The notes under the pieces were generated by a model. That model made no database searches. It saw only the letters and a program-made list of their open reading frames with translations, and was not told where the DNA came from. The position numbers were made by a program, and so were the translations under genes. This document shows, one piece after another, positions 10,170 to 36,140 of a stretch of 36,140 nucleotides of DNA (positions are counted from its first letter, which is position 1; every line of letters begins with the position of its first letter). The stretch is from NCBI GenBank assembly GCA_021325315.1, contig JAJPHK010000086.1:1-36140 (forward strand), given 5' to 3'. The DNA comes from Alphaproteobacteria bacterium. Lineage in GTDB: Bacteria > Pseudomonadota > Alphaproteobacteria > Rhizobiales > Xanthobacteraceae.

Positions 10170-10180
10170 GGGAGGAAGCC

Positions 10181-13453: not shown

Positions 13454-13495
13454 GATTCCCTCCCCATCAGTTTATTGTTTTTTTTGAGCCTTGCT

Positions 13496-14239: not shown

Positions 14240-14270
14240 GGTGAACGCACCGCGGTCATCGATGCCTCCG

Positions 14271-15590: not shown

Positions 15591-15619
15591 GTTTCACTCC
15601 CCGTTTGTTTCCCCCGGTG

Positions 15620-19244: not shown

Positions 19245-19310
19245 AGAACGCCTCCCAAGACACGTCACCCCTCTTGCGGGGGATGGACATTCCGACTCTG
19301 GCATCTAAAA

Positions 19311-19350
19311 ATCATATTGCAAGACTTTTTGTTTCGGTTTTTGATACAAA
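19311..19350. promoter_or_regulatory. Divergent control region with a candidate IclR operator
   Basis: Between the biotin carboxylase (left) and iclR (right), an inverted repeat TTTGTTTC (19328-19335), 7 nt, GATACAAA (19343-19350) matches at 7 of 8 positions. Its position 3 nt before the iclR ATG and between divergent catabolic genes fits an autoregulatory IclR-family operator. TATGAT read leftward (19311-19316) could be a -10 box for the carboxylase operon. TTGCAA (19318-19323) and GATACA (19343-19348) are possible rightward hexamers; that -10 would place the start of transcription at the iclR ATG. All are candidates by position and symmetry. Confidence 0.45.
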
Positions 19351-19353
19351 CCC

Positions 19354-20199
19354 ATGCAGCTTCGAACCGGCACTCCACTTTCGAATAAGAATCGACTGAA
19401 AGGCGCCGCCGACCGGCCGGCTTCGACAGAGCCGTCGGGGAAGGCCTTTCCGACGGTCAAAGCCGTTTCGATCCTTGAAGCCATCGCAAGCGCCCGGCGG
19501 CCGCTAAGCGTCACGGAGCTGGGCGTGCTTCTCAGTCTTCCCAAGCCGACCGCGCATCGCATCGTGCGGATGCTGGAGAACGAAGGCCTGATGCAGCGCG
19601 AGCCCGGCAGCCGCCGATTTGTGCCGGGTCCGCGTCTTGTGCGCCTCGGTCTCGGCATTGTCGGCGCCGCCATGTCGAGCGCACCGCGTCATTCCATTCT
19701 GGAAGCGCTTTCACAGAAGATTGGCGAGACCTGCAATTTCGGCATCATCAACGGCAGCCACGTTCTTTATCTCGATCGCGTCGAAGCCGCGTGGCCGCTC
19801 GGCTTGCGGTTCGAATCCGGCTCGCACGTGCCGCTCCATTGCACGTCGATGGGTAAGCTGTTCTTGAGCTGGATGCCGAAACGGAAACGGGCGGTGTTGC
19901 TCCGCTCCCTGCAACTTCTTCGCTACACGGAGAACACCATTACGGACGTCTCGCGGCTCGAAGCCGAGCTCGAGAAAATCCGCGAAGCGGAAGTTTCCAC
20001 CGACAATCAGGAATTCCTCGCCGGCGTCGTCTGCGTCGCCGTTCCTGTCCGCGACCAAAACGGGCATCGGGTAGCGGCACTTGCGATTTCCGCGCCGCTC
20101 GCCCGGATGTCGCTTGAACAAGGATTGCAGCACGTGCCGCTGATGCAGAAGGCGGCGGAGGAGCTCACGGTTACAATCGAAGAAGAACACAAATCATAG
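19354..20199 (+). CDS. IclR-family transcriptional regulator
   Basis: 281 residues. An N-terminal tail of about 30 residues precedes a winged helix-turn-helix (about 33-95: AVSILEAIA, SVTELGVLLSLPKPTAHRIVRML, MQREPGSRRFVPG), followed by the IclR effector-binding domain (about 110-270, with LHCTSMGKLFLSWMP and GVVCVAVPVRDQNG). The winged helix binds operators as dimers, and the C-terminal domain senses small organic acids. It is divergent from the biotin carboxylase operon and is followed after 9 nt by the biotin carrier gene. It is thus placed to control both sides. No Shine-Dalgarno precedes the ATG; an operator-like palindrome ends 3 nt before it, so a leaderless message is possible. Confidence 0.93.
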   Translation: MQLRTGTPLSNKNRLKGAADRPASTEPSGKAFPTVKAVSILEAIASARRPLSVTELGVLLSLPKPTAHRIVRMLENEGLMQREPGSRRFVPGPRLVRLGLGIVGAAMSSAPRHSILEALSQKIGETCNFGIINGSHVLYLDRVEAAWPLGLRFESGSHVPLHCTSMGKLFLSWMPKRKRAVLLRSLQLLRYTENTITDVSRLEAELEKIREAEVSTDNQEFLAGVVCVAVPVRDQNGHRVAALAISAPLARMSLEQGLQHVPLMQKAAEELTVTIEEEHKS

Positions 20200-20691: not shown

Positions 20692-20779
20692 AGGAGAAAG
20701 CTCGAAACTAAAACGGACAGGAGTGAACCAGCTTCAATTTGCCGTTGCCATTCAACGAAAACAAAACGGGAGGGATGGA

Positions 20780-22048
20780 ATGCAAAAGAAACTGAAATTC
20801 AAATTGCTCGCGGCGGGCCTTTTCGCCGGTTTGCTCTGCAGCCTGACGCCGGCTGTCGCGCAGAACGTTACGCAGTGGGGTTGGCCGCAGCCCTACGAAA
20901 AAGTTTCGGACAAATCGGTTGCGTGGCTGAAGGAAAAAGGCTGGTGGCCGATCGTCGTCGGCTGGCAAGGCCCGTTCTCCGGCCAGAACACCATCAACGT
21001 GGTGATGGACAAGGAAGGGCTCCTCCAAAAGCGCGGGATCGAAGCGAAATTCCAGGTCTTCGCCTCCGGGCCGGAGGTGAACGAATCCGTCGCCGCTGCA
21101 CGCATTCAGGTGGGTAATGGCGGGAATTTTCCGTTCACATCGCTGCTCGATCGCGGTGTGCCGGTGCGCGCGATTGCCGTGGTCGCACCGAATTTGAAGC
21201 ACTCTACGGTCGTCCCGCTTGACTCTCCGATCAAGAAACTCGCCGACTTCAAGGGCAGCAATCCGCCCGCGACGATCGGCATCGTCACCGGCTCGTCGTC
21301 GGAATTTTATTTTACGCAGGCCGCCGAGGTCGTCGGGTTGCAAATCGGCAAGGACGTCATCCTGAAAAACATGCCGCCCGCCGAGCAATTGCTGATGGTC
21401 AAGGGGATCGGCGGGGTCGTCCCGTGGGAACCATCGGTCACAATCATCACGGAAGAGCGCAAGACAGGGCGCGAGATCGACACCATCTTCCCGTACAATT
21501 TTTATGAAGGTCGTTTCTATGTTCGGCAGGAATTGATCGACAACGTGCCGGATGTCGTTCAGGCGATTAGCGACGCCTTCATGGAATCGACGCTCTGGAT
21601 CCGGCTGCATCCTGAAAAGGCCGCCGACTATCTGGCGGCCGAGCCGATGCTGAAAACTTTCGGCAAGGATCTCCTGCTGCAGCAAACGAAGCTCTACAAC
21701 AATCTCTACAAGCCGACCTACAGCTATCCCTTCGCCAAGATGTGGGGCGAGGAAGATTCCCGCATCGCCAAATGGCTGAAAGAGCGGAACCGCATCACCA
21801 AGGCGCTCACGGCGAAGGACTACGAAGCTTCCTTCGACGAGCGTTTCATGCTGAAAACCTATGAAAAGCTCGGCTGGAAAGTTCCCGAGCGCGCGCCGTT
21901 CCTGCCCGCGAACTGGGCCGGCAAGATCGGGCAGCTTCCCTATCCGGCTTATGACAATGCTTTGACGCTGAAAGCGCCGCAGCCCTGGCCCGAACCGGGC
22001 GATTTGACGAAGCCTTGGACTTTCAACGGCAAGACCTACAATCCCTGA
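20780..22048 (+). CDS. NitT/TauT-type ABC transporter substrate-binding protein
   Basis: 422 residues from the ATG at 20780, which has GGGAGGG 5 nt upstream and begins a good signal peptide (KKLKFK, hydrophobic core, PAVAQN). An in-frame start 57 nt earlier would place 19 non-signal residues in front. The mature protein has features of the nitrate/sulfonate binding family (GPEVNESVAAARIQVGNGG, GIVTGSSSEFYF, PEKAADYLAAEP). It is longer than, and clearly different from, the two paralogous binding proteins elsewhere in the window, so it should bind another ligand. It heads a transporter set with the permease and ATPase that follow. A hairpin sits in the 48-nt gap to the permease. Confidence 0.92.
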   Translation: MQKKLKFKLLAAGLFAGLLCSLTPAVAQNVTQWGWPQPYEKVSDKSVAWLKEKGWWPIVVGWQGPFSGQNTINVVMDKEGLLQKRGIEAKFQVFASGPEVNESVAAARIQVGNGGNFPFTSLLDRGVPVRAIAVVAPNLKHSTVVPLDSPIKKLADFKGSNPPATIGIVTGSSSEFYFTQAAEVVGLQIGKDVILKNMPPAEQLLMVKGIGGVVPWEPSVTIITEERKTGREIDTIFPYNFYEGRFYVRQELIDNVPDVVQAISDAFMESTLWIRLHPEKAADYLAAEPMLKTFGKDLLLQQTKLYNNLYKPTYSYPFAKMWGEEDSRIAKWLKERNRITKALTAKDYEASFDERFMLKTYEKLGWKVPERAPFLPANWAGKIGQLPYPAYDNALTLKAPQPWPEPGDLTKPWTFNGKTYNP

Positions 22049-22061
22049 ATGAGATGAGGCA

Positions 22062-22086
22062 GGCGCGGGACTGACCGTCTCGCGCC
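22062..22086 (+). other. Stem-loop between binding protein and permease genes
   Basis: GGCGCGGGAC (22062-22071) and GTCTCGCGCC (22077-22086) pair at 9 of 10 positions around a TGACC loop. No T tract follows, so a full terminator is unlikely. Stem-loops after binding protein genes commonly stabilise the upstream part of the transcript and raise the amount of binding protein relative to the membrane parts. Here it begins 13 nt after the stop codon. Confidence 0.55.
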
Positions 22087-22096
22087 TCTCGCGGCC

Positions 22097-22957
22097 ATGA
22101 GTGAATCGGAAACGCCCATTCAAGAGACACGCATCAATTTGGCGCCTGCGGAACGCACGTCGCCGTCGATCAGCGTGCGCCTCCTTCGCCTTTTCTCCTC
22201 ACTGCCGAATCTCGGCCTGCTGATTTTTCTCATTATCGCGTGGCAATTGGCGTCGACCGTCTGGCTGCCGAGCATCGACCCGCATATGGCGGTGCTGATG
22301 CCGGCGCCGACTTTGATCGCGAAAACCGCGGCCGCGATGATCGCCTCCGGCGAGCTTTTCTATCACTTGACGGCGAGCTTAAAGCGCGAGGCGATGGCGT
22401 TTCTATTCTCCGCGGTCGCTATTCCGCTCGGCATCGCCATGGGCTGGTGGCGCCTGGTTTACAACCAGGTTCAGCCGATCATGGAAATCCTGCGCCCGAT
22501 CCCGCCGCTCGCCTGGATTCCGCTCAGCATTCTGTGGTTCGGGCTCGGCGACGAGCAAAACGAGTTCATTATCTTCCTCGGCATGTTTTTCCCGATTCTC
22601 GTGAACACGATTGTCGGCGTGAAAAACATCGAGCCGAACCTCGTGCGCGCGGCCCGCAGCCTGGGCGCGCCTGAATACAAGGTACTTGGCCGCGTCGTGT
22701 TCAAGGGCGCGCTGCCGCAGATCATCACCGGCGTTCGCATCGGCCTCGGCGTCGGCTGGATGGCGCTGGTCGCTGCCGAGCTTGTTGGTGCGAATTCGGG
22801 CCTCGGCTTCCTCATTAACGACGCCCGCAGCATGTTGCGGACGGACGTGATCGTGGTCGGCATGCTGACGATCGGTTTGATCGGATTGCTGATCGACATC
22901 GCGATCCGGATGATAAGCCGCCGCTTGCTCCCCTGGTCGCTGGCACTCGGCAGATAG
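22097..22957 (+). CDS. NitT/TauT-type ABC transporter permease
   Basis: 286 residues with about six hydrophobic segments, so an inner-membrane BPD-type permease. The conserved cytoplasmic EAA-like loop, RAARSLGAPEYKVLGRV through GALPQI, contacts the ATPase. The C-terminal half (MALVAAELVGANSGLGFLI, DARSMLRTDVIVVGML) is typical of SsuC/TauC/NrtB relatives. It follows the binding protein after a 48-nt gap that contains a stem-loop, and the ATPase starts 10 nt downstream. No good Shine-Dalgarno is visible before the ATG, so translation may be weaker than for the binding protein. The substrate is inferred only from its neighbours. Confidence 0.93.
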   Translation: MSESETPIQETRINLAPAERTSPSISVRLLRLFSSLPNLGLLIFLIIAWQLASTVWLPSIDPHMAVLMPAPTLIAKTAAAMIASGELFYHLTASLKREAMAFLFSAVAIPLGIAMGWWRLVYNQVQPIMEILRPIPPLAWIPLSILWFGLGDEQNEFIIFLGMFFPILVNTIVGVKNIEPNLVRAARSLGAPEYKVLGRVVFKGALPQIITGVRIGLGVGWMALVAAELVGANSGLGFLINDARSMLRTDVIVVGMLTIGLIGLLIDIAIRMISRRLLPWSLALGR

Positions 22958-22967
22958 GGGAACGCGA

Positions 22968-23732
22968 ATGGGCCGTTTGACCGTAAAAGGATTGTCGAAA
23001 GTCTACGGCGAGAGCAGCGCCGCCGGCAGCGTGACCGCGCTTCAGAATGTCTCGTTCGAGGTGCCGGACAATCAGTTTTGCTCGATCCTCGGGCACAGCG
23101 GTTGCGGTAAGACTACGCTCCTGAATATTGCCGCCGGCTTTGAAAAGCCGACATCCGGCAGCGTGATGGTGGACGGCGAACCGATCCGCACGCCCGGCTG
23201 GCAAAATACGATGATCTTTCAGGACTACGCGCTGTTTCCTTGGGCGAGTGTCGCGGACAATATCGCATTCGGGCTCGAGATGAAAAACATGCCGCGCCAC
23301 AAGCGCCTCGACACAACGCAATATTTTATCGGTCTCGTCGGGTTGAAAGGATTTGAAAATAAATACCCCCATCAGCTCTCCGGCGGCATGCGCCAGCGCG
23401 TTGCGATCGCTCGCGCGCTCGCGGTGCGCCCGCAATTGCTTCTGATGGACGAGCCTTTCGCCGCGCTCGACGCGCAAAACCGTGCCTTCATGCAGGACGA
23501 GCTCGTCCGCATCTGGCAGCGGGAGCCGAAAACCGTGATGCTGGTCACCCACAGCATCGACGAGGCGATCAAGCTATCCGACTGCATCGCCGTCATGACC
23601 CGGCGGCCGGGGAGGGTGAAGGAATTCATCCAGGTCGAATTGCCGCGGCCTAGGGATGAAGACGACGCCGCTTACCTGAAATTGAAGCGCAAGCTGCGCG
23701 ACCTGATCCATGACGAAATGGAAGAGCAATAA
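22968..23732 (+). CDS. NitT/TauT-type ABC transporter ATP-binding protein
   Basis: 254 residues. All nucleotide-binding motifs are present: Walker A GHSGCGKTT, Q-loop FQDYALFPW, signature LSGGMRQR, Walker B LLMDEPFAALD and the switch His in THSIDEA. This is the SsuB/TauB/NrtD-like group. It powers the permease encoded 10 nt upstream and closes the rightward iclR-accB-transporter unit. A 317-nt non-coding stretch follows before the lipid transport genes. Confidence 0.96.
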   Translation: MGRLTVKGLSKVYGESSAAGSVTALQNVSFEVPDNQFCSILGHSGCGKTTLLNIAAGFEKPTSGSVMVDGEPIRTPGWQNTMIFQDYALFPWASVADNIAFGLEMKNMPRHKRLDTTQYFIGLVGLKGFENKYPHQLSGGMRQRVAIARALAVRPQLLLMDEPFAALDAQNRAFMQDELVRIWQREPKTVMLVTHSIDEAIKLSDCIAVMTRRPGRVKEFIQVELPRPRDEDDAAYLKLKRKLRDLIHDEMEEQ

Positions 23733-25982: not shown

Positions 25983-26768
25983 ATGGAACGGAAAGCGAAT
26001 TATGTCTTGATAGGGTTATTCACTTTCGCCGCGATCGCCGCCGCCTTTGCCTTCGTGTTCTGGATTCATCACACGTCGGACAAGAAGACGGGCGTGGCCT
26101 ACCGCGTGATTTTCGACGGCGCGGTTTCGGGTCTTCGCGTCGGAAGCTCCGTGCTCTTCAACGGCATCCGCGTCGGCGAGGTGACCGCGCTCCGGCTCGA
26201 TCCGGAGGCGCCGTCGCAGGTGACGGCGCTCATTGTCGTGAACAAGGCGACGCCCATACGCTCCGACACCTATGTAGGTCTCGAATTTACCGGGCTCACC
26301 GGCATCGCCTCGATTTCATTGAAGGGCATTTCGACAACCGCGCCGCTTCTCGAAAAGGAAGAAGGCGAGCCGCCGAGCCTGCGCGCCGACATCAGCGCGA
26401 GCCAGGACATGATGCAGGCGGCGCGCGACGTGCTCGCAAAAGCCGACGCTGTGATTGTCGCCAATCAGGAGGATCTGCGGAAGGCGATCCGCAACCTGAC
26501 GGCGTTCACCGACACGCTCGCGAAGAACTCCGACAATATCGACGAGATTCTGAAAAACACCAAGGACGCGACCGCCTCCGCGAAGGAGCTGATGGTTTCC
26601 GGCAAGGAGCTCGTGGAGAACGTCGACAAGCGCACCGACGACATGAGCAAGAATTTCAATACGCTCATGAAAACGGCGACAAAACAGGTCGACGTGATTG
26701 GAAAATCCGTTTCGGATCTCGCGAAGAATCCCTCGCGGATCCTCTTCGGCGGCGGCGCTACGCGCTAG
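25983..26768 (+). CDS. mlaD: MlaD-family (MCE domain) periplasmic lipid-binding protein
   Basis: 261 residues from the second ATG of ATGATG, with GGAGGGG just upstream (25973-25979). One N-terminal membrane anchor (about 7-28) is followed by an MCE domain (about 38-118: YRVIFDGAVSGLRVGSSVLFNGIRVGEV, then SISLKG) and a long helical C-terminal part with many Asp/Lys/Ala. MCE proteins form hexameric rings that guide lipids through the periplasm. No auxiliary lipoprotein, MlaC or MlaA gene follows, since the next gene is convergent. The TAG stop shares its CTAG with the stop of the leftward flavoprotein gene, leaving no intergenic space. Confidence 0.92.
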   Translation: MERKANYVLIGLFTFAAIAAAFAFVFWIHHTSDKKTGVAYRVIFDGAVSGLRVGSSVLFNGIRVGEVTALRLDPEAPSQVTALIVVNKATPIRSDTYVGLEFTGLTGIASISLKGISTTAPLLEKEEGEPPSLRADISASQDMMQAARDVLAKADAVIVANQEDLRKAIRNLTAFTDTLAKNSDNIDEILKNTKDATASAKELMVSGKELVENVDKRTDDMSKNFNTLMKTATKQVDVIGKSVSDLAKNPSRILFGGGATR

Positions 26769-28483
26769 GCGACCTGATCCAGCAGGCTCTCGCCGGGCCG
26801 GATACGCGTGAATTCCACGGGCTCGTCGCTGATGCTGATTTTATCGCCCTGGAGCCGCGCCTTGGTGTAACGCGACGTGTTCAGATCGGAGGTCTGCGGA
26901 AAATCCTCGCGGAAATGTGCGCCGCGGCTGTCCTTGCGATGTTCTGCGGCGGCGCAGATCGCGCGGCTCACCAGCGTCAGGTTTTCGAGATTCAGCCGAT
27001 CCATCCAGGTGAGGTTGTAGCGGCGGCTCGTGTCTTCGACGCCGCACGCAGCGATATCTTTCGCGAGCGCATCCAGCGCCATCTTGCCGCGCGCGAGCGT
27101 CTCGCCCGTGCGCAAAATGCCGATATCGTTCCACATCACATCATATAGATGCTCGCGCATCGCGCTGAGATCGCCGGATTTTTTGCCGAGCGGCGCGAAG
27201 GCCCGATCACGCGCGGCTTCGATTGCGGCGCGATCGGGCTCGGGCAGGGCGCTTTTCGGCGCGACGCGCTTGCCCATTACATCGCCGGCAATGCCGCCGA
27301 AGACGGTCGAGTTCGCGACACCGTTTCCGCCCAGGCGGTTCGCACCGTGCACGCCGCCGGTGTCTTCGCCCGCCGCGTAGAGGCGCGGCATGGCGGTGGT
27401 GCAGTCGGTCGAAAATTCCACGCCGCCCATCATGTAATGTGCGGTCGGAATGACTTCGACGCGGCCGGAGGCCAAATCGAAACCGCAATCGGCGCAGCGC
27501 TCGACCATGCCCTTGAAATTCTTGCGGACATTTTCCGGCCCGAGATGGCCCATCTCGATATAGACCCCGCCATGCGGGCTCGCGAAGCCTTTGCGGATGC
27601 GGTCCTGAATCGAACGGCTGACGATATCGCGCGTCGCGCGCTCGCCGCGCTTGTCGTAATCGAACATGAAGCGCTTTCCTTCGGAATCGGTGAGATAGCC
27701 TCCCGCGCCGCGCAGGCCTTCTTCCAGCACCGTGCCGGTCATGCGGGTGCCTTCGCCCGCGAGAAGTCCGGTCGGATGGAACTGCACCATCTCGATGTCG
27801 CGGAGCGCGAGGCCCGCGCGCAGTGCCATCGCAAGCCCGTCGCAGGATTTGTCGCCTGACGGCGTGTGGTATTTGTACATCGTCGGCCCGCCGCCGGTGG
27901 CGAGCAACGTTGCGCGCGCTCGCACGAACAGCGGCTCACCGGAACGCATGTCGAGCATCAACACGCCTGTGAGTTCCGAGCCGTCGGCGCTCGGGATCAA
28001 GTCGAGCGCGCGATGATCCTCGATGCGGCGGACGTCGCGCCGCCAAACCTGCTCGGCGAGCCGGTTGATGATCTCGATGCCCGTGAGATCGCCCTTGTGC
28101 ACCGTGCGGTCGAAGGTTTGGCCTGCGAATGCTTTCTGATGAACGGTGCCGTCCGAGTTGCGGTCGAAGAAACAGCCGAGCTCGTTTTCGAGTTCTCGAA
28201 TCCGCACCTGCGCTTCGGTGACAAGCGTCCAGGCCAGGTCCTGGTTGTTCAGCCACTTGCCGCCTTCGATCGTATCCATGAAGTGCCGCTCGACGGAGTC
28301 GCCCTGCGAAAGGGCGACGTTATAGCCGCCTTGCACCATACGGGTGCAGCCGCATTTGCCGAGAAGGCCTTTCACTGCAATCGTCACGTCGAGGTCGGGA
28401 TTGATTTTCTTCGCATGCAGCGCCGCGAACAGGCCGGCGCCGCCCGCGCCGAGAATGAGGATATCAGTCTCGATCGTTTCCAT
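26765..28483 (-). CDS. Succinate dehydrogenase/fumarate reductase-like flavoprotein subunit
   Basis: 572 residues. The FAD-binding ILGAGGAGLFAALHA opens the protein. Catalytic residues of the family are found by eye alignment: His236 (FHPTG), Arg285 (ATRDIVSRS), His349 (AHYMMGG) and Arg383 (GANRLGGN). Two unusual points: the covalent FAD-linking His of SdhA (SHTxxAQGG) is Cys46 here (GCTRMVQGG), and the substrate-binding Thr of the VTEG motif appears to be Glu254 (LEEGLRGAGG). FAD may be bound non-covalently and the substrate may be other than succinate. It is the last gene of an operon that also encodes the iron-sulfur and membrane subunits. It starts directly after the fumarase beta stop. 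It could act as dehydrogenase or reductase of a substituted C4 acid. Confidence 0.9.
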   Translation of the reverse strand: METIETDILILGAGGAGLFAALHAKKINPDLDVTIAVKGLLGKCGCTRMVQGGYNVALSQGDSVERHFMDTIEGGKWLNNQDLAWTLVTEAQVRIRELENELGCFFDRNSDGTVHQKAFAGQTFDRTVHKGDLTGIEIINRLAEQVWRRDVRRIEDHRALDLIPSADGSELTGVLMLDMRSGEPLFVRARATLLATGGGPTMYKYHTPSGDKSCDGLAMALRAGLALRDIEMVQFHPTGLLAGEGTRMTGTVLEEGLRGAGGYLTDSEGKRFMFDYDKRGERATRDIVSRSIQDRIRKGFASPHGGVYIEMGHLGPENVRKNFKGMVERCADCGFDLASGRVEVIPTAHYMMGGVEFSTDCTTAMPRLYAAGEDTGGVHGANRLGGNGVANSTVFGGIAGDVMGKRVAPKSALPEPDRAAIEAARDRAFAPLGKKSGDLSAMREHLYDVMWNDIGILRTGETLARGKMALDALAKDIAACGVEDTSRRYNLTWMDRLNLENLTLVSRAICAAAEHRKDSRGAHFREDFPQTSDLNTSRYTKARLQGDKISISDEPVEFTRIRPGESLLDQVA

Positions 28484-29092
28484 TTATGCGGCGCCGATCT
28501 TTGCGAGTACGTCCCCGCGCTTGGCGGCAGCACCTGCGTTCACATCCGCGTACATGGAGTTTCCATGGGAATCCATGGTGACGAGGAGAGGGCCGAAACC
28601 CTTGATGCGGAACTTCCACAAGCTCTCGGGATGCAGATCGTCCATATCTACTTCCTCGATCGCCTCGATCCAGGTCGTTTCCAGCGCCGCGGCACCGCCG
28701 ACGACGGCGAGATAGGCGCCGCCGAGATCGCGAAGGGCGTCGAGCGTTGCTTGTCCCATGCCGCCCTTGCCGATGATGAGCTTCACGCCTTCGCGTTCCA
28801 TCAGGGGTCGCGTGAAGCGCTCCATGCGCATCGAGGTCGTGGTGCCGATGCAGAGCGGCTCGTAGCCGGACGAGTTGTCCGGCCGCGGATCGACCTTCTT
28901 CACATTCGGCGCGGTATGCACAACGGCGTGCCCCTTGAGATCGAGCCGTGTCTTGCGGCCCTTGTCGAACATCGCGATCAGCGTCGCGTCGCGAATGCCG
29001 AACAAGGTTTTTTCCAGCGTTACGGTGTCGCCGACCTTGAGCGCGCGGGTTTGCGCGTCGTCGATCGGCATGTTGAGGACATGATGCGCCAT
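28484..29092 (-). CDS. Class I fumarase/tartrate dehydratase, beta subunit
   Basis: 202 residues from the ATG at 29092, with GAGGAAG just before it; the open frame extends to 29143 but that part overlaps the alpha subunit gene. The C-terminal-domain fold of class I fumarases is recognisable: KVGDTVTLEKTLFGIRDATL, GTTTSMRMERF, LIIGKGGMGQATLDAL. It works with the alpha subunit to add water across the double bond of fumarate or a substituted fumarate. Two-subunit enzymes of this kind include fumarases, mesaconases and L-tartrate dehydratases, and sequence alone cannot choose. The gene lies 7 nt after the alpha subunit and directly before the flavoprotein gene. Confidence 0.9.
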   Translation of the reverse strand: MAHHVLNMPIDDAQTRALKVGDTVTLEKTLFGIRDATLIAMFDKGRKTRLDLKGHAVVHTAPNVKKVDPRPDNSSGYEPLCIGTTTSMRMERFTRPLMEREGVKLIIGKGGMGQATLDALRDLGGAYLAVVGGAAALETTWIEAIEEVDMDDLHPESLWKFRIKGFGPLLVTMDSHGNSMYADVNAGAAAKRGDVLAKIGAA

Positions 29093-29099: not shown

Positions 29100-29972
29100 T
29101 CACTCGAACGCAATGCCGCCCGGCGTGATCGTAGCGCTCGCACGCCGCGCCGAATGGCACTGAATGTTGACCGCGACGGGGTTCATCGTGATATGCGTGG
29201 CCGCGACCTCGACATGCACGCGGAATGCCGTCGATTTTCCGCCCAGTCCTTGCGGCCCGATGCCGAGCTCATTCACGGCCTCGGAGAGCTGTGCCTCGAT
29301 CTTCGCGCCTTCTTCGTCGGCGCATTTCGAGCCGAGCGGGCGGGTGGCCGCCACTTTCGCGAGATGCATACAGACATCCGACGTGCCGCCGATCCCGACA
29401 CCCACGATCGTCGGCGGGCAAACACGGCCGCCGCATTCGATCACCTTGTCGATCACGAAGCGTTTTACGGCGCCGACGCCGTCGGCGGGAATCAGCATCT
29501 GAAGAAACGATCCGTTCTCCGAGCCAGATCCCTTTGGGATCATCTCGATCTCAAGCGTTTCGTCGCGCTCGTCGAAATCGATGTTGATGACAGGCACGCC
29601 GATGCCGCACGAAGTCTGCTCGTTCTTGCGCGTGATCGGATGCACGACGGAGGAGCGCAGAGGATGCTCGGTCGTCGCCCGCGCGCAGCCCTTGCGGATT
29701 GCTTCCTTCATCGCGGCGCCGTCTAGCACGACGTTCTTCCCGATCTTGACGTTGTAGATCGGGATGCCGGTGTCCTGGCAGAGTAGGTTTTTCGTGCGCT
29801 CGGCGACCGCGATATTTTCCACCATCGTGCCGAGCACGGTCTTTCCGGTCGCGCTTGTTTCCTCGCGCATCAGCCGGTCGAAGCCTTGCTTGATGTCGCG
29901 GGGCAACAGCTTCAGTGCGCGGATATAGAGAGTCTTCGCGACCTCTTCGACTTCCTTGATGTCGACCTGCAT
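29100..29972 (-). CDS. Class I fumarase/tartrate dehydratase, alpha subunit ([4Fe-4S])
   Basis: 290 residues with GGGAGG before the ATG. Cluster ligands are probably Cys65 (LLCQDTGIP), Cys185 (VCPPTIVGVGIGG) and Cys272 (NIQCHSARRA), as in FumA-type hydro-lyases with an oxygen-sensitive [4Fe-4S] cluster. Other family stretches are TSCGIGVPVINIDFDE and GIGPQGLGGKSTAF. Paired with the beta subunit, it should hydrate fumarate or a related unsaturated diacid. Its place in a transcript with a succinate dehydrogenase-like complex suggests consecutive steps: dehydrogenation, then hydration. The TSUP permease gene ends 11 nt upstream. Confidence 0.92.
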   Translation of the reverse strand: MQVDIKEVEEVAKTLYIRALKLLPRDIKQGFDRLMREETSATGKTVLGTMVENIAVAERTKNLLCQDTGIPIYNVKIGKNVVLDGAAMKEAIRKGCARATTEHPLRSSVVHPITRKNEQTSCGIGVPVINIDFDERDETLEIEMIPKGSGSENGSFLQMLIPADGVGAVKRFVIDKVIECGGRVCPPTIVGVGIGGTSDVCMHLAKVAATRPLGSKCADEEGAKIEAQLSEAVNELGIGPQGLGGKSTAFRVHVEVAATHITMNPVAVNIQCHSARRASATITPGGIAFE

Positions 29973-29983: not shown

Positions 29984-30718
29984 TTACAGCACGAGCGTTG
30001 CGCCGGAAACGATCAACAAGACGGCGAGAGCTTGACGGAAGCGCCTGTCGTCGAGCTTACCGAAAAGCTGCCAGCCGATCCAGGTTCCCAAAAGAACCGG
30101 CGGCAGGATGGCGGCGAAAAGCACCAGGCTCGTGCGGTCGAAGGCGACGAGCAGGATTCCCGCCACTGTGATCGCTTGGATAACAATGACATAGGGTTGA
30201 TAGACGGCGCGCGCCATCTCCTTCGACCAGCCGCGCAACTGCGTCCAGATCGTGGGAAGTACGCCCGAATAGCCTCCGATGCCGCCGAGGATGCCGCCGA
30301 TGAATCCGATTGCGCCATCGGCGGTGCGGCCGCCGGCGGTGAAGCTTGGGAGCTTTGGCGCGAGCAGCGCATAAGTTCCGAACGCCACGAGAAAAACGCC
30401 AAGCGCCACTTTCAGCGTGGCGGCGTCGGTATAGGCGAGGAGATAGACGCCGATCGGCACGCCGATGACGCCACCAATGACAAAAGGCGAGAGACGGGAA
30501 AATTCGATGTGACGCCTGAGCGGCCAAAGCGTCGTGAGATGCAACAGAACGCCGGACGCGGTGATCAGAATTGCGGAATGCACCGGATCAATCTTGTGCA
30601 GCCAGATCGCGGAAGCGGCGAGCCCGAACGCAAAGCCGCTCGCGCCGGCGGCGATGCCGCCGACGAGCGCGCCCAGCCACAGGAATTCCAGCGTTTCCAG
30701 GGGTATTCCCGCGATCAT
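29984..30718 (-). CDS. TSUP (TauE/SafE) family membrane permease
   Basis: 244 residues from the ATG at 30718, 4 nt after the upstream cytochrome gene; earlier in-frame starts would lie inside that gene and add non-membrane residues. The protein is almost entirely hydrophobic, with about 8 segments and the repeated glycine-rich pattern of the family (GGIAAGASGFAFG and GGILGGIGGYSGVLPT). TSUP proteins export sulfite or sulfoacetate in taurine pathways, and other members move lactate or other organic anions. In this operon it may export an anion released from the substrate, or import the substrate itself. Both are inference. Confidence 0.88.
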   Translation of the reverse strand: MIAGIPLETLEFLWLGALVGGIAAGASGFAFGLAASAIWLHKIDPVHSAILITASGVLLHLTTLWPLRRHIEFSRLSPFVIGGVIGVPIGVYLLAYTDAATLKVALGVFLVAFGTYALLAPKLPSFTAGGRTADGAIGFIGGILGGIGGYSGVLPTIWTQLRGWSKEMARAVYQPYVIVIQAITVAGILLVAFDRTSLVLFAAILPPVLLGTWIGWQLFGKLDDRRFRQALAVLLIVSGATLVL

Positions 30719-30722
30719 GCGA

Positions 30723-31064
30723 TCAGCCCGCATTGAGAATGAAAACAAGGCCGACCGCGAACACCGCGGCGATGCAGGCGGAAAGCATCGCGAGCGTCTT
30801 CTCGCGGAAATCGAAAAATTCGATCGCAAGCACCCTGAGTCCGAGCGTCATGTGCACGGCAAGCGCCACCACAATCCCCCATTCCGCGAGTTTGACGAGC
30901 GGCTGCCGTGTCAGCTCCAGAAACGCATCGAGCGCGCTCGCGCCGTTCAGCGCGGTCGCCAGCGCGAGAAAATGCAGCGGCAGGAAAATCGCGAGTGCGA
31001 TCCCGGAGAGGCGATGCAAAATCGCCGCGATAAATCCGCGCTGGGTGTGCGATGCGCGCATCAT
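30723..31064 (-). CDS. Succinate dehydrogenase/fumarate reductase-like cytochrome b subunit (SdhC-like)
   Basis: 113 residues from the ATG at 31064, which overlaps the previous stop by 4 nt (ATGA). Three hydrophobic segments are visible. HRLSG near residue 18 is the SdhC quinone-site motif, and the VHMTLGLRV segment supplies a likely haem b His. It should anchor the flavoprotein and iron-sulfur subunits to the inner membrane and pass electrons to or from quinone, together with the membrane protein encoded just upstream. Confidence 0.85.
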   Translation of the reverse strand: MMRASHTQRGFIAAILHRLSGIALAIFLPLHFLALATALNGASALDAFLELTRQPLVKLAEWGIVVALAVHMTLGLRVLAIEFFDFREKTLAMLSACIAAVFAVGLVFILNAG

Positions 31065-31387
31065 GCGTATACCGCGTAGACGGCCCGAAAACCGAGAGCG
31101 AGCAGTAAAAGCGAAAACAGCACTAGCGCGGCGTCGAGCGAGCGTCCGCGCCACGGCGTCCATTCGCGGATGATGCTGCGCAAGCCGATCGGTGCGTGGA
31201 TCGCGACCGCGATGACGAACACGCTATAGAACAGCATGAAGGCGGCGTTCCCGTGCGTGCGCGCAAGGATTTCGCCTGCGGTCAGCCCGCCGCGGATCGC
31301 ATACAGAATCGTCCCGAGATGCACCGCGACCGCGAGCGCGAGCACGAAGGCCGTCAGCCGCTGTGCGACGAAGAGGGCCGGGTTCAT
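31061..31387 (-). CDS. Second membrane anchor subunit of the SDH/FRD-like complex
   Basis: 108 residues from the ATG at 31387, overlapping the iron-sulfur subunit gene by 4 nt. Three hydrophobic segments are visible, with QRLTA near the N-terminus, a His in the first helix (VAVHLG) and a second in IHAPIGLR. The pattern HxxxGLR is shared with the partner membrane subunit, so both look SdhC-family derived. It probably forms a cytochrome b heterodimer. Haem content (one or two) cannot be told from sequence. Confidence 0.8.
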   Translation of the reverse strand: MNPALFVAQRLTAFVLALAVAVHLGTILYAIRGGLTAGEILARTHGNAAFMLFYSVFVIAVAIHAPIGLRSIIREWTPWRGRSLDAALVLFSLLLLALGFRAVYAVYA

Positions 31388-32121
31388 GGTTTGCCCCCCA
31401 GCGAGCGCCAAAAGACCGCCCGCTTCAGACCCGCGATGGAGTAGGTGGGCGCAAGCGATTTGGGGCAGAACTCGGTACAGCTCATATGCGTATGACAGGC
31501 TTGGCAGCCGTCGCTATGCGCGATCGCCTCCAGCCGTTCGGCATTTCCCCGATCGCGCACGTCGTTCACGAGCGTCCAGGCGCGGTTCAGCGCCGCGGGG
31601 CCGAGATAGTCCTTGTCCCACGCGACGACGTCGCAGGCGGAATAACAAATCCCGCAGCCGATGCATTCGATATGTTCATCCACTTCGCGGCGCTTTTTGG
31701 AGCCGGGCGGCACGATCGCGAAATCTTCCGCCGGTTTGTCGCCGGGCTCGAAAGAGCCTCGGGCTTTTTTCCATTTGTCAAAGAACTGCGTCATCTCGAC
31801 CGCGAGATCCTTCACGATGGTGAAGTTGCGGAGCGGCTCGAGTTTGATTTTTCGATCGCCGCCGATCACTTCGCTCACACGCGTGCGGCAGGTCCAGCGC
31901 GGGCGGCCGTTCACGACCATGGCGCAGGAGCCGCAAATGCCGACACGGCAGGCAAAGCGATAGGAGAGGGTAGGATCCTGCTCGCGCTGGATTTCGGTCA
32001 CGACATCGAGCACCGTCTGGTGCTCGCGCCGCGGCGTCCTGAATTCCTGAAAGCTGCCTTCTTCCGTGCCTCGCCAGATTTCCACTTCCAGGACGGAATC
32101 CGGCGCGGCTCGCTCCATCAT
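31384..32121 (-). CDS. Succinate dehydrogenase/fumarate reductase-like iron-sulfur subunit
   Basis: 245 residues from the first ATG of ATGATG at 32121; the frame stays open far upstream, but only as a shadow of the permease gene. The [2Fe-2S] ligands are Cys58, Cys63, Cys66 and Cys78 (CRVGICGSC). The [4Fe-4S] ligands are Cys153, Cys156, Cys159 and Cys219. The third cluster ligands are Cys163, Cys209 and Cys215 (CHTHMSC), which is the three-Cys pattern of a [3Fe-4S] centre as in SdhB. An extra Cys206 is nearby. It links the FAD subunit to the membrane cytochrome. It overlaps the ABC permease gene by 4 nt, an unusual partner for such a subunit. Confidence 0.93.
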   Translation of the reverse strand: MMERAAPDSVLEVEIWRGTEEGSFQEFRTPRREHQTVLDVVTEIQREQDPTLSYRFACRVGICGSCAMVVNGRPRWTCRTRVSEVIGGDRKIKLEPLRNFTIVKDLAVEMTQFFDKWKKARGSFEPGDKPAEDFAIVPPGSKKRREVDEHIECIGCGICYSACDVVAWDKDYLGPAALNRAWTLVNDVRDRGNAERLEAIAHSDGCQACHTHMSCTEFCPKSLAPTYSIAGLKRAVFWRSLGGKP

Positions 32122-33002
32122 GTCTGCATGCCCCACAAATTCACGGTGCGGGCTTCGATGGCGCGGAAAATCACCGACTCGACGAAGAGCCCGATCAGGA
32201 TGACGGTGAGGAGACCCGAGAACACGGTAGCCGTATCGAGCTCGTTCCGCGCCTCGAAGATGTACCAGCCGATGCCGCCCGAGCGCGACGAGACACCGAA
32301 CACAAGCTCGGCTGCGACCAATGTGCGCCAGGCGAAGGCCCAGCCGATTTTCAGACCGGCGAGGATCGAGGGAAACGCCGCCGGAATCAGAATAAGCCCG
32401 ACATAACGCGCGCCTTTCAAGCCTACATTCCGTCCGCCCATGCGCAGCGTCTCGGGCACGGCACGAAAGCCGCTTAATGTATTTAGTGCCACCGCCCACA
32501 AGACCGAGTGGATAATGACGAAGACGAGCGACGGCGTGCCGAGCCCGAACCAGATCAGCGCGAGCGGCAGAAGCGCGATCGCCGGCAGCGGATTGAACAT
32601 CGCGGTCAGTGTCGAGAGAATCCGCGTGCCGAGGCCGCTTGCGACCGCGAAGGTTGTGAATACGGCGGCGATGGCCAGTCCAAACGCATAGCCGATTACC
32701 AGCGTCCGCATCGATGTTATCGTGCGGTTGATCAAGACGCCGTTTTTGATGTCGCGGAAAAAGGTACCGATCGTATCGGTGAAGGTCGGGAACAAGAGGG
32801 AGTTGTTCAGCCAGCGCGCATAGAGCTCCCAGACCAAAATCAGCACGACGAGGATCGCGAAGCGTTGCACCGTTTCGTTCGTCGCGATCCGCTCGAACAG
32901 CGAGAGCGGCCGTTCGACCTCGCCGATCGAACCGGAATCGACGGGTTCGATCTCGAATTCCGGACGTGCGGAAGTATTCGTATTCTGCATCTGACGGCTC
33001 AC
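32118..33002 (-). CDS. NitT/TauT-type ABC transporter permease
   Basis: 294 residues from a GTG at 33002 that overlaps the ATPase stop by 4 nt (GTGA); an ATG 12 nt later is the alternative. About 45 polar residues precede about six membrane segments. The cytoplasmic loop RMGGRNVGLKGARYVGLILIPAAFPSIL is the EAA-like coupling motif. The overlap with the ATPase before it and the iron-sulfur subunit after it shows that uptake and catabolism are translated as one unit. The ligand is unknown and presumably a C4-type acid, if the downstream enzymes act on it. Confidence 0.92.
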   Translation of the reverse strand: MSRQMQNTNTSARPEFEIEPVDSGSIGEVERPLSLFERIATNETVQRFAILVVLILVWELYARWLNNSLLFPTFTDTIGTFFRDIKNGVLINRTITSMRTLVIGYAFGLAIAAVFTTFAVASGLGTRILSTLTAMFNPLPAIALLPLALIWFGLGTPSLVFVIIHSVLWAVALNTLSGFRAVPETLRMGGRNVGLKGARYVGLILIPAAFPSILAGLKIGWAFAWRTLVAAELVFGVSSRSGGIGWYIFEARNELDTATVFSGLLTVILIGLFVESVIFRAIEARTVNLWGMQT

Positions 33003-33838
33003 GCGGTTGCGCCTTCTTTTGCGCCGGGTTGCTTCGGCTTTTCGCCGAACAGGAGATTATGGATACGTTTCGACATCGCGCCGAAATCGACATGGTCGAT
33101 ATTGTTGTAGTTCAGCCGGTCGGTATCGAGCTCCGCCCGCACGCGCCCCGGATGCGGCGATAGCACAAGCACGCGCGAGCCGACGAGGATCGCTTCCTCG
33201 ATCGAATGCGTGACGAACATCACGGTAAAGCGGAGCTGATCCCAGAGCGACAGGAGTTCTTGCTGCATCGAACGCCGGGTGAGTGCGTCGAGCGCAGCAA
33301 ACGGCTCATCCATCAAAAGAATGTCAGGCTCGAGCGCCATCGCGCGCGCGATCGCGACGCGCATTTTCATGCCGCCCGACAACATATGCGGATAGACGTC
33401 CTTGAATTTCGTGAGGCCGACTTTCTCGATGACGGAATTCGCGCGCGCGATCGTATCCTCGCGCGCGAATTTTTTCGTTACCTTCATCGGGAAAAGTACG
33501 TTCTGGAAAACAGTCTTCCAGGGCATCAGTTGCTCGAACTCCTGGAAGACCATCATCCGGTCGGGTCCGGGTGCGTCGATTTTGCGCCCCCGGATCGTAA
33601 TCTCGCCCTCGACCGGCGACATGAATCCCCCGACGGCCTTCAGGAGCGTGGACTTGCCGCAACCTGAAGGCCCGAGGATCACGTAACGGTCGCCTTGGTG
33701 AACGGAGAAGTTCACGCGGTACGTCGCTGTCACGAGATGCCGCGGCGTCTTGTATTGCAGCGTGACTCCATTCACCGCAAGCAATGCCTGGGAAGAGGAG
33801 GGCGCTGGCATGGACATAGGGCGTACGCTCACATTCAC
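32999..33838 (-). CDS. NitT/TauT-type ABC transporter ATP-binding protein
   Basis: 279 residues from the GTG at 33838, 2 nt after the binding protein stop and with GGGAAG 6 nt before it; ATGs at 33817 and 33811 are alternatives. Motifs: Walker A GPSGCGKST, Q-loop FQEFEQLMPW, signature LSGGMKMR, Walker B ILLMDEPFAALD, switch His in THSIEEA. A C-terminal tail follows VRAELDTDRLNYNNIDH. It is the energy subunit of the second transporter. The signature GMKMR differs from the common GMRQR of its counterpart at 22968, so the two transporters are not a recent duplication. Confidence 0.93.
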   Translation of the reverse strand: MNVSVRPMSMPAPSSSQALLAVNGVTLQYKTPRHLVTATYRVNFSVHQGDRYVILGPSGCGKSTLLKAVGGFMSPVEGEITIRGRKIDAPGPDRMMVFQEFEQLMPWKTVFQNVLFPMKVTKKFAREDTIARANSVIEKVGLTKFKDVYPHMLSGGMKMRVAIARAMALEPDILLMDEPFAALDALTRRSMQQELLSLWDQLRFTVMFVTHSIEEAILVGSRVLVLSPHPGRVRAELDTDRLNYNNIDHVDFGAMSKRIHNLLFGEKPKQPGAKEGATA

Positions 33839-33840
33839 CG

Positions 33841-34860
33841 TCAGCTTCCCGACTTGTTGTGGATGGCGTCGATATAGACGTCCTTCCAACTCGCCGGTTT
33901 TTCGGGGATCATGCCGACGCGCGCCATGTAATCGGCGAAGTCCATGACCTTGCGCGGCGTGGTGGTCCACTCGTTTTCCGGCAACTTGATGATGCGCTCA
34001 GCTTCCGCGACGGAGAGCTTGGATTTGTTGTTCTTCACCCAAAGCTCCGCCGCGCCGTGAGGGTCTGACTTGATATATTTCATCGCCTCTTCGAGCGCGG
34101 CGAGGAAAGCTTGCGCGACTTTCGGCTCGCCTTTGTAGACCTTTTCGGTCGCCCACACGGAGTTGAAGGTGTGTGGCCCGCCGAGCACCTCATAGCTGTC
34201 AAGCACGCGGTGCACCCGTTTGTCCTCGAGCTCCTGATACATGAAGGGCGCCGAGGTGAAGTGCGCTGTGATTTCCGATTTGCCGCTCATCATCTGCGCG
34301 AGGCCGTCCGGGTGGCTGAGCGAGACGGTCCACGGGTCGAGCTTGTGTTCCTGTCCCTTGCCGAAGACTTTTTCCGCGGCCATTTGCAGCACGACGGCTT
34401 GAATCGAAACGCGAACGGCGGGAAGCGCGATCCGGTCTTTCTCGGTGAAGTCCTTGATGGTCTTCACGTTCGGATTGATCGTGTTGAGCCAAAGCGGCAT
34501 CGCGTTGATCGCGGCGATGCCCTTGATCTTGATGTTGTTCTTGGTGCGCGCCCACGCCGTCACCAGCGGGCCGACGCCACCGGAGGCGAAGTCGAGATTG
34601 CCGGAAACGAGCGCCTCGTTCATGGGCGGGCCGCCGGTGAACTGCAGCCATTCGGTTTTGATATCGAGACCGAGCTTCTTGCCCTCGGCTTCGAGCAGCT
34701 TCTTTTCCTCCATCACCGTGAGCGGCAGGTAGGAAATACCGAACTGCTTGGCGATGCGAACGGTACGTTCTTCGGCGTTCGCGCCCGTAACGGCGAAAGA
34801 AAGGCCGATGACGGCCGCGAAGAGGGCCAAGCCCCATTTTGATCGAGAAATTCCAGTCAT
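33841..34860 (-). CDS. NitT/TauT-family ABC transporter substrate-binding protein
   Basis: 339 residues with a signal peptide (SRSKWG, hydrophobic core, GANAEE). It is the first gene of the leftward operon, with GGGAG 8 nt before the ATG. The mature sequence is closely similar to the orphan binding protein at 12440-13453 across its length (shared IALPAVRV, HFTSAPFMY, KRVHRVLDSY and SSWKD/ASWKD near the end). It should bind the substrate in the periplasm and deliver it to the permease and ATPase that follow. The similarity of the two proteins suggests ligands of the same chemical class. Confidence 0.94.
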   Translation of the reverse strand: MTGISRSKWGLALFAAVIGLSFAVTGANAEERTVRIAKQFGISYLPLTVMEEKKLLEAEGKKLGLDIKTEWLQFTGGPPMNEALVSGNLDFASGGVGPLVTAWARTKNNIKIKGIAAINAMPLWLNTINPNVKTIKDFTEKDRIALPAVRVSIQAVVLQMAAEKVFGKGQEHKLDPWTVSLSHPDGLAQMMSGKSEITAHFTSAPFMYQELEDKRVHRVLDSYEVLGGPHTFNSVWATEKVYKGEPKVAQAFLAALEEAMKYIKSDPHGAAELWVKNNKSKLSVAEAERIIKLPENEWTTTPRKVMDFADYMARVGMIPEKPASWKDVYIDAIHNKSGS

Positions 34861-34978: not shown

Positions 34979-35713
34979 TCACTTCAGATCGGACAGGTAG
35001 TGAAACGTATCAGTTCGGCAGAGAGAAACACGCCATTCCGTCGGCCGCCCGTCGAGCGAATAGGCGGTGCGGTCGATGGCAAGGAGCGGCGTGCCGATCG
35101 CGACGCCCAAATGCTTCGCCTCACGCCGCTTGGCTGCGACCGCTTTTAGTTTTTCCGTTGAGCGCGCGATGGTGACGCCGAACTTCGCGCGGTAAAGCTC
35201 GTAAAGATTGTTCGGAAGATCGAGTTTTTCCGCGGCCGGAAACAGCGCGTGCGGCAAGGTAATGGTTTCCACAATCGCGGCTTTTCCGCTGAGCGAGCGG
35301 ACGCGCTCCAGTTGCAGAACGCGGCTGCCGCTGCGGAGTTTCAGGATTTTCGCGGCATCGGGGCTGGCCGGACGGACATCAATGCCGACAAACTTGCTGC
35401 TGGGAAACTCGCGCTCGCCTGTGTCGGGCGTCAGCCTGAAAAATTGAAAAATGATGCGCGCATCGTCATGCCGCGCGACGAACGTGCCGCGCCCCTGATG
35501 CCGTACGACGAGATTTTCCGCTTCCATCTCGTCGAGCGCTTTCCGCGCCGTGCCGGGCGAAATGCCGAGATCGGCTGCGATTTCCATCTCGCTCGGGATC
35601 GCCTGACCCGCTTGCCATGTGCCGTCGTTGATACGGCTGACCAGGATATCGCGCGCCTGCCGGTAGAGCGGGCGAAAGCCGAGCGCGTTATTGCGGGCTT
35701 CGATGCGGGCCAT
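34979..35713 (-). CDS. GntR-family (HutC/UTRA) transcriptional regulator
   Basis: 244 residues. The N-terminal winged helix (about 12-80) has the GntR pattern: PLYRQARDILVSRI, QAIPSEMEIAADLGISPGTARKALDEMEAENLVVRHQGRGTFVARH. The UTRA effector domain (about 95-235) follows, with LQLERVRSLSGKAAIVETITLPHALFP and PLLAIDRTAYSLDGRPTEWRVSLCRTD. Such regulators usually repress the neighbouring catabolic genes until a pathway metabolite binds. It lies upstream of the leftward operon in the same direction and is divergent from the UxaA-type genes, so it could control both. Confidence 0.95.
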   Translation of the reverse strand: MARIEARNNALGFRPLYRQARDILVSRINDGTWQAGQAIPSEMEIAADLGISPGTARKALDEMEAENLVVRHQGRGTFVARHDDARIIFQFFRLTPDTGEREFPSSKFVGIDVRPASPDAAKILKLRSGSRVLQLERVRSLSGKAAIVETITLPHALFPAAEKLDLPNNLYELYRAKFGVTIARSTEKLKAVAAKRREAKHLGVAIGTPLLAIDRTAYSLDGRPTEWRVSLCRTDTFHYLSDLK

Positions 35714-35790: not shown

Positions 35791-36078
35791 ATGGCTATTC
35801 CGCAGTTATTGGTTCACGATAAAAAAGATACGGTCGGCGTGGTGGTGGTCGAGGGCCTCAAGGCCGGGACCGACATGCTCTGCGTTGTGACCGCCGACAA
35901 TTCTTCCTTCAATCTGAAATCGAAGATGGATGTGCCGATCGGCCACAAGATTGCGCTCACCGACATCAAAAAGGGCGACACGGTCATTAAATACGGGCAG
36001 GACATTGGCAAGGCAGTGGCCGATATCGCGAAAGGCGAGCACGTCCACGTTCACAATCTCAAGACGAAGCGGTGGTAA
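35791..36078 (+). CDS. UxaA-family small subunit (SAF domain; SuyA/altronate dehydratase N-part-like)
   Basis: 95 residues, the size of stand-alone SAF-domain subunits such as (2R)-sulfolactate sulfo-lyase alpha (SuyA), and equal to the N-terminal part of altronate or galactarate dehydratases. Family features are HDKKDTVGVVVVEGLKAG, the VPIGHKIALTDIKKGDTVIKYG segment and the terminal HVHVHNLKTKRW. The small subunit works with the larger catalytic subunit, which begins 2 nt downstream. The pair would remove water or sulfite from a hydroxy acid. It is divergent from gntR. Which substrate is used cannot be read from this part. Confidence 0.88.
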   Translation: MAIPQLLVHDKKDTVGVVVVEGLKAGTDMLCVVTADNSSFNLKSKMDVPIGHKIALTDIKKGDTVIKYGQDIGKAVADIAKGEHVHVHNLKTKRW

Positions 36079-36080
36079 TC

Positions 36081-36140
36081 ATGGCGCAGGGCAACGGCAA
36101 ATCGAACATGAAATTTCAGGGCTGGCGGCGCGAGAACGGC
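36081..36140 (+). CDS. UxaA-family large subunit, start only (3' end outside window)
   Basis: Only 20 codons are inside the window. They begin MAQGNGKSNM and reach FQGWRRENG, which fits the start of the C-terminal catalytic part of the UxaA/GarD/SuyB family, usually F-x-GY-x-R-x-DG followed by RVGVRN. The gene starts 2 nt after the small subunit stop, so they are translated together. The identification depends on this short match and on the neighbour. Confidence 0.65.
   Translation, partial: MAQGNGKSNMKFQGWRRENG

Follow-up and report, generated by a model that had tools for sequence, protein, structure and literature searches.

A complex II-type flavoprotein with cysteine and glutamate at two active-site positions and its association with sulfolactate genes in an alphaproteobacterial contig and its relatives

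The SdhA* operon

The window analyzed in this study is the whole of contig JAJPHK010000086.1 (hereafter C72), a 36,140-nucleotide stretch of DNA from an alphaproteobacterium of the family Xanthobacteraceae (assembly GCA_021325315.1). On its minus strand, an open reading frame (ORF) with its ATG at 28483 and its stop codon at 26765 encodes a polypeptide of 572 amino acid residues, which is referred to here as SdhA*. The coordinates 26765–28483 given in an earlier note on this DNA were right and the strand is minus, as the plus-strand reading is interrupted by stop codons. Domain models and alignments identified SdhA* as a full-length complex II-type flavoprotein of the SdhA/FrdA/NadB superfamily. 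The PF00890 domain for binding flavin adenine dinucleotide (FAD) and the PF02910 C-terminal domain were matched with 243 and 100 bits, respectively, both above the gathering scores. Comparison of SdhA* with SdhA/FrdA chains by VIA-align gave Z scores of 34–41 and root-mean-square deviations of 3–4 Å across 430–541 residues. The AlphaFold2 model of SdhA*, built on a 19-sequence alignment, had a mean predicted local distance difference test (pLDDT) score of 76.7 and also supported the fold. Because the stretches near the active site (residues 43–50, 120–129, and 239–250) had pLDDT scores <50, the model is uninformative on the geometry at Cys46 and Glu254, the two residues that set SdhA* apart from SdhA and FrdA.

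SdhA* is encoded by the last gene in a row of minus-strand genes. This row begins with the genes for a GntR/UTRA regulator (34979–35713), an SsuA/NMT1-family periplasmic binding protein (33841–34860), an ATPase of the TauB/NtrC type (32999–33970, the start of which is probably internal, near 33840) and a permease of the nitrate/taurine type (32118–33002) of an ATP-binding cassette (ABC) transporter. The permease was assigned by reading its sequence, with no model scan, and from its place between the ATPase and the binding protein. They are followed by the genes for an SdhB-like iron-sulfur subunit of 245 residues with 2Fe-2S and 4Fe-4S cysteine motifs (31384–32121), two Sdh_cyt membrane anchors, of which the SdhC-like one has 113 residues (30723–31064) and the other 108 (31061–31387), and a TauE/SafE family transporter, a sulfite or sulfonate exporter (29984–30730, start approximate). 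Between the last of these and SdhA* are the alpha (Fumerase, 29100–29972) and beta (Fumerase_C, 28484–29092, likely start ATG at 29092) subunits of a class I fumarase-type hydratase. The SdhB-like subunit scored 187 bits with the dhsB model TIGR00384 (cut-off 88), and Sdh_cyt was matched in both anchors. The hydratase matched PF05681 and PF05683; its alpha subunit was over the cut-off of NF004885 (308 vs. 276 bits) and its beta subunit narrowly under that of TIGR00723 (142.3 vs. 145.15 bits), while the TtdA/TtdB equivalog cut-offs were missed.

Divergent from the regulator gene, the plus strand encodes a SuyA-like small subunit of 95 residues with a SAF domain (35791–36078) and the start of a suyB-like gene (36077–36140), which is cut by the end of the contig. 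The end of C72 and the end of another contig, C15, share an exact 107-base overlap, and the suyB-like gene continues on C15. Across this junction, suyA-suyB-slcC-comC-like genes run in one direction, divergent from the SdhA* operon.

Conserved residues of SdhA* and the linkage of FAD

The earlier note had also claimed that Cys46 stands at the position of the FAD-linking histidine and Glu254 at that of the threonine of VTEG. Both substitutions were borne out by alignments with SdhA and FrdA of Escherichia coli, the canonical SdhA of the host and the relatives of SdhA*, in which the equivalent of Glu254 is the threonine of (V/M)TEG, Thr244 of E. coli FrdA. The alignment of relatives comprised 92 sequences: 80 named genome loci, which were the best 80 of 580 found by a search of named genomes, 11 plasmid loci, from a plasmid search that returned 18 records with one relative each, and SdhA* of the window. 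Besides members of the Alpha-, Beta-, and Gammaproteobacteria, the set includes Rhodococcus and sequences from two haloarchaea. All 92 sequences have Cys46 and Glu254, and none has histidine at the flavin site or threonine at the substrate position. Equally invariant (92/92) were His236, Arg285, His349, and Arg383, which the note had listed as kept, as well as Glu255 and Arg258. The change from RGEGG to RGAGG fared differently. Ala260 is present in SdhA* of the window, but position 260 varied among the 92 sequences (76 Ala, 8 Ser, 6 Phe, 1 Val, and 1 Glu), and RGAGG was dropped as a functional mark. Position 44 was also variable, with Cys in 61, Ser in 24, and Thr in 7 sequences. Because Cys46 and Glu254 were without exception in the 92 sequences whereas Cys44 and Ala260 varied, the former two constitute, on the basis of these alignments, the signature of a widespread subfamily, for which we use the name SdhA*, and not a private mutation.

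The host genome provided controls for both positions. Its canonical SdhA, which was over the cut-off of TIGR01816 with 935 bits, possessed histidine and threonine at the two sites, and its separate NadB, also over its cut-off and 36% identical to SdhA*, possessed serine and threonine. As canonical SdhA and NadB are both encoded elsewhere in the host genome, SdhA* is not considered to be the Krebs-cycle enzyme. Another flavoprotein of the superfamily from the same genome (locus L004; contig C33, 9545–11239) was 25% identical to SdhA*, lacked most of the catalytic residues and was under all curated cut-offs, its best match being TfrA with 203 bits.

SdhA* itself was under the cut-off of every NCBIfam model listed in the scan. 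Its best model was that of TfrA (NF004900), with 496 bits against a cut-off of 718. The scores with the SdhA/FrdA models TIGR01812, TIGR01816, and NF006686 were 430, 340, and 336 bits against cut-offs of 567, 727, and 854, respectively, and that with the NadB model TIGR00551 was 342 bits against 453. With these curated cut-offs unmet and the two defining residues absent, SdhA, FrdA, NadB, and TfrA were rejected as the identity of SdhA*. SdhA* shares with SdhA/FrdA of complex II the fold, the FAD-binding and C-terminal domains, His236, His349, Arg383, and Arg285, the Glu255-Arg258 relay and the SdhB/SdhC/SdhD partners. It differs from them by Cys in place of the FAD-linking His, Glu in place of the catalytic Thr and an operon tied to sulfolactate and sulfite genes. 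Different from thiol:fumarate reductase, for which the TfrB model has 488 positions, the SdhB partner of SdhA* has only 245 residues and is linked to membrane anchors. L-aspartate oxidase NadB is likewise a related flavoprotein without the FAD-linking histidine; however, NadB retains the threonine at position 254 and needs neither a hydratase nor an SdhB partner.

The histidyl-FAD bond of complex II lifts the flavin potential by ~100 mV; for relatives that bind FAD non-covalently, an inability to oxidize succinate has been described (PMC9557727, PMC10238741). If SdhA* is a dehydrogenase, therefore, either Cys46 would carry FAD or the substrate couple would permit a lower potential. Cys46 is predicted either to bear FAD as a cysteinyl flavin or to leave FAD non-covalent. 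The former is a serious option, as Cys46 is invariant and a covalent bond has been published as needed for succinate oxidation (PMC9557727), and we regard a cysteine-linked FAD in SdhA* as quite possible, if still tentative. The strict invariance of Cys46 beside the variable position 44 favors a role for this residue, without proving a bond. As Thr244 of E. coli FrdA remains hydrogen-bonded to the carboxylate of the substrate through the transition state (PMC10238741), Glu254, which is located at the same position, probably helps set the substrate choice.

Sulfolactate and sulfite genes near SdhA* genes

Beyond the SAF small subunit, the genes across the C72/C15 junction encode a large subunit with GD_AH_C, a domain shown on the orthologue at locus L099, and dehydrogenases of the SlcC and ComC types, all in one operon. 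The best model for the ComC-like protein was L-sulfolactate dehydrogenase (NF040650), with 197 of 500 bits. In Paracoccus wurundjeri, genes in the order suyA-suyB-slcC-comC are induced on sulfofucose and have been assigned a role in breaking sulfolactate down to pyruvate and sulfite (PMC12421959). The gene order found here is the same as in P. wurundjeri, and this sulfolactate set, together with TauE, corresponds to the downstream half of the pathway proposed below. Different from the known set, it is joined here to SdhA*, a paralogue of complex II, and to the hydratase, which are proposed to make sulfolactate from 3-sulfopropionate. C15 also encodes, near slcC-comC, a fused class I fumarase-like protein of 498 residues (locus L126; 2869–4365, minus strand), accompanied by a LysR gene and a transporter of the TauABC type. 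This protein may be a housekeeping fumarase or another sulfonate hydratase.

SdhA* genes of other organisms were also associated with sulfur genes. At 43 of the 60 relative loci with at least 18 kb of sequence, at least one of SuyB, ComC, SlcC, TauE, YeiH, and sulfite dehydrogenase was found, and 31 of these 60 loci contained sulfolactate genes (SuyB, ComC, or SlcC). Where present, SuyB was ~0.6–7.5 kb away. On plasmids of Paracoccus ferrooxidans and P. versutus, SdhA* was accompanied by YeiH, TauE, Ldh, a hydroxyacid dehydrogenase and a tripartite tricarboxylate transporter (TTT), and on that of Methylobacterium radiotolerans by a UxaA pair, Ldh, an NAD(P)-dependent oxidoreductase and TauE. 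The plasmid of M. nodulans encoded SdhA* with sulfite dehydrogenase, a molybdopterin oxidoreductase, cytochromes c, a sulfate exporter and TauE, that of Pseudomonas sp. MPC6 with sulfite oxidase, TauE and a coenzyme A-acylating semialdehyde dehydrogenase, and that of Pseudorhizobium banfieldiae with TauE, a tripartite ATP-independent periplasmic (TRAP) transporter and a succinate-semialdehyde-type dehydrogenase. In Haloarcula and Natribaculum, SdhA*-SdhB were beside TauE and a SuyA/SuyB-like UxaA pair, with Ldh also found in Haloarcula. The fumarase-type hydratase was absent from these two haloarchaeal loci, where a lyase of the ArgH superfamily, members of which form or break double bonds of fumarate-like acids, was in its place. 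This lyase was over the cut-off of the argH model and matched XcbC of coenzyme M biosynthesis with 257 bits (cut-off 575). Given that the hydratase is swapped for an unrelated hydro-lyase in haloarchaea, the product of SdhA* would be an unsaturated acid that needs hydration.

Three other features of these neighborhoods were observed. At 31 of 91 loci, a thiamine pyrophosphate enzyme was beside SdhA* (e.g., L099 2703–4355, L166 12724–14349, and L157 6338–7939). Its relatives include acetolactate synthase and 2-hydroxyacyl-CoA lyase, it scored far under the Xsc cut-off, and it possibly represents an alternative fate of sulfopyruvate. At eight betaproteobacterial loci (L052, L058, L081, L089, L093, L094, L095, and L099), a sulfatase-family gene (PF00884, SGSH_C; gene cluster 17) was inside the SdhA* operon, between the anchors and the hydratase. 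Finally, upstream of the SdhA* operon on plasmid pRHL1 of Rhodococcus jostii RHA1 (L162 7685–8686), an ORF stretch reads by eye as a SuyA/SAF remnant, for which the Pfam scan gave no match.

SdhA* and SuyB also occurred together at the level of genomes. Among 199 genomes of the order, 27 had SdhA*, 47 had SuyB and 21 had both (odds ratio 19.7, p = 1.2e-10, kinship ignored), such that SuyB was found in 21 of the 27 genomes with SdhA* vs. 26 of the 172 others. In a second sample, 380 genomes from other orders of the class, the respective numbers were 31, 32, and 19 (odds ratio 41, p = 6e-16, kinship ignored), with SuyB in 19 of 31 genomes with SdhA* vs. 13 of 349 others. A genome with both genes was found in 17 of the 20 families with SdhA* in the order and in 11 of the 17 outside it. 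SdhA* very probably belongs to the catabolism of organosulfonates, namely that of sulfolactate.

Predicted pathway and alternative functions

SdhA*, SdhB, and the two anchors likely form a quinone-linked dehydrogenase of the complex II type. Its substrate would be a C3 sulfonate that is analogous to succinate, with 3-sulfopropionate as the most likely candidate. This compound, which arises in the metabolism of both sulfoquinovose and homotaurine, would be imported by the ABC transporter and oxidized by SdhA*BCD to 3-sulfoacrylate, with the electrons passed to quinone. The class I fumarase-like alpha/beta hydratase would then add water to form 3-sulfolactate, similar to the conversion of fumarate to malate. 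By homology to the described pathway, SlcC and ComC would interconvert the sulfolactate enantiomers and SuyAB would split (R)-sulfolactate to pyruvate and sulfite, the latter being presumably exported by TauE. This conversion of 3-sulfopropionate via sulfoacrylate to sulfolactate is the simplest chemistry that unites an SDH-like complex, a fumarase-like hydratase and sulfolactate genes, and it mirrors that of succinate via fumarate to malate. That SdhA* would be an active enzyme with an altered substrate, as the earlier note had suggested, is well supported by the invariant catalytic residues, the SdhB/C/D partners, the cross-phylum conservation and the pathway context. Methylsuccinate, an early idea for the substrate, was dropped after a literature search without a useful result, as the sulfolactate genes indicate a C3 sulfonate; cations such as dimethylsulfoniopropionate were considered for Glu254 and were also dropped, as the neighboring genes handle sulfite.

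The pathway was derived from gene content before the intermediates of the homotaurine route turned up in the literature. Homotaurine breakdown in Roseovarius nubinhibens has been related to proceed via 3-sulfopropionate, sulfoacrylate, and sulfolactate (thesis of J. Mayer, as cited in PMC11489063), which are the same intermediates as those proposed for the SdhA* pathway. The citing paper names no enzymes for the dehydrogenation and hydration, for which candidate genes are proposed here, although the thesis may already name some. No named enzymes for 3-sulfopropionate dehydrogenation or sulfoacrylate hydration, and no publication on any sulfoacrylate enzyme, were found in the openly licensed papers searched. 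Except for one thesis, bacterial degradation of 3-sulfopropionate was described in 2024 as unreported before (PMC11489063), and its mechanism in Bilophila was still called unclear in a 2026 review (PMC12890257). The gene cluster provides concrete candidate enzymes for this breakdown. If true, the assignment would show how complex II can be adapted to a sulfonate substrate. The cluster also makes it directly testable whether a cysteine can serve as the carrier of FAD at this site of complex II. The Cys46/Glu254 signature could also be used for re-annotating many database proteins that are now labeled "FAD-binding protein" or "fumarate reductase". In its fullest form, the proposal would be a sulfonate-using complex II with FAD on the cysteine at the usual histidine site, the potential of which is high enough for oxidizing 3-sulfopropionate to sulfoacrylate, and a sulfoacrylate hydratase that is fumarase-like in bacteria and of the ArgH superfamily in haloarchaea. 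Together they would reproduce, with sulfonates, the part of the Krebs cycle that leads from succinate via fumarate to malate. In this combined form the proposal is speculative.

Several observations weigh against 3-sulfopropionate oxidation by SdhA*. None of the scored sulfur genes was found at 17 of the 60 relative loci of at least 18 kb, and 12 of the 31 genomes with SdhA* outside the order were without SuyB at the threshold used. The co-occurrence statistics are uncorrected for phylogeny. SuyB was assigned by context, as no curated SuyB model was among those scanned and the nearest ones are those of galactarate dehydratases. Moreover, a glutamate close to a sulfonate or carboxylate is unexpected on electrostatic grounds, and FAD, if non-covalent, would favor reduction over oxidation according to the published behavior of complex II (PMC9557727).

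Given that the neighboring genes fix the class of the pathway and not its substrate, and that the transporters vary among loci (ABC, TTT, and TRAP), the complex could act on another sulfonate, such as sulfosuccinate, from which sulfofumarate would arise along with a hydroxylated product, or on a C3–C4 sulfonate with substituents, and feed the same desulfonation genes. SlcC, ComC, and SuyAB, however, are sulfolactate-specific and fit a C3 skeleton directly, semialdehyde-type dehydrogenases are near some loci and the literature search found no paper for the version with sulfosuccinate. We consider another sulfonate unlikely, although it is the alternative that deserves most attention. The electrons could also flow in the opposite direction: sulfolactate would be dehydrated to sulfoacrylate, which SdhA*, with a low-potential non-covalent FAD, would reduce to 3-sulfopropionate as an electron sink. 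In known complex II, loss of the FAD-linking histidine lowers the flavin potential and disfavors oxidation (PMC9557727), and TauE of E. gilvus has been described as probably exporting 3-sulfopropionate (PMC11489063). Such a reductase is nevertheless improbable, as the adjoining SuyAB, sulfite dehydrogenases and sulfate exporters imply oxidation, uptake transporters are within the operon and the named hosts are mostly from aerobic groups.

Relatedness to NadB raises the question of whether SdhA*, similar to L-aspartate oxidase, oxidizes cysteate (2-amino-3-sulfopropionate), with the sulfopyruvate/sulfolactate genes functioning downstream. Binding of the ammonium group by Glu254 would be chemically sensible, and SuyAB serves cysteate degradation too (Rein et al., 2005, as cited in PMC12421959). 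Yet the conserved hydratase, which is even replaced by another lyase family in archaea, would then be superfluous, and NadB keeps threonine where SdhA* has Glu254, making a cysteate oxidase very improbable. Least probable of all is an ordinary second pair of succinate dehydrogenase and fumarase that just serves the Krebs cycle while sulfonates are the growth substrate, which is how a sulfofucose-induced "fumarate and tartrate" cluster with TauE was read (PMC12421959). Canonical SdhA with His and Thr is already in the genome, the two defining residues are lost in all SdhA* members, and their own anchors and a transporter travel along with them. This cluster, "cluster 3" of P. wurundjeri, resembles the SdhA* operon of other Paracoccus, to which it was likened by description and not by sequence. 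The pathway proposed for SdhA*, that is, 3-sulfopropionate oxidation followed by hydration, may explain its induction, which was left as related to the Krebs cycle in PMC12421959.

Beyond the SdhA* operon, the window contains other groups of genes. A second transport set is on the plus strand at 20723–23732. Its binding protein (20723–22048) had no Pfam match at 1e-8, while its permease and ATPase cluster with the ABC genes of the SdhA* operon; it is possibly another importer of the sulfonate or nitrate/taurine type. The minus-strand genes at 12440–19673 encode an NMT1-like binding protein, a short-chain dehydrogenase, a major facilitator superfamily transporter, a beta-keto acid cleavage enzyme (BKACE), a PYC_OADA/HMGL-like carboxylase subunit and a biotin carboxylase, with an IclR regulator adjoining on the opposite strand, and resemble a catabolic route of carboxylation plus cleavage. 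The plus strand at 133–6723 encodes a sensor kinase of 1574 residues, which has many HAMP domains as well as GAF, HisKA, and receiver domains, and downstream of it a kinase of the receiver-PAS-HWE type. Finally, an aldehyde dehydrogenase, a cytochrome c and a molybdopterin-binding large subunit are encoded consecutively on the plus strand at 6854–12403.

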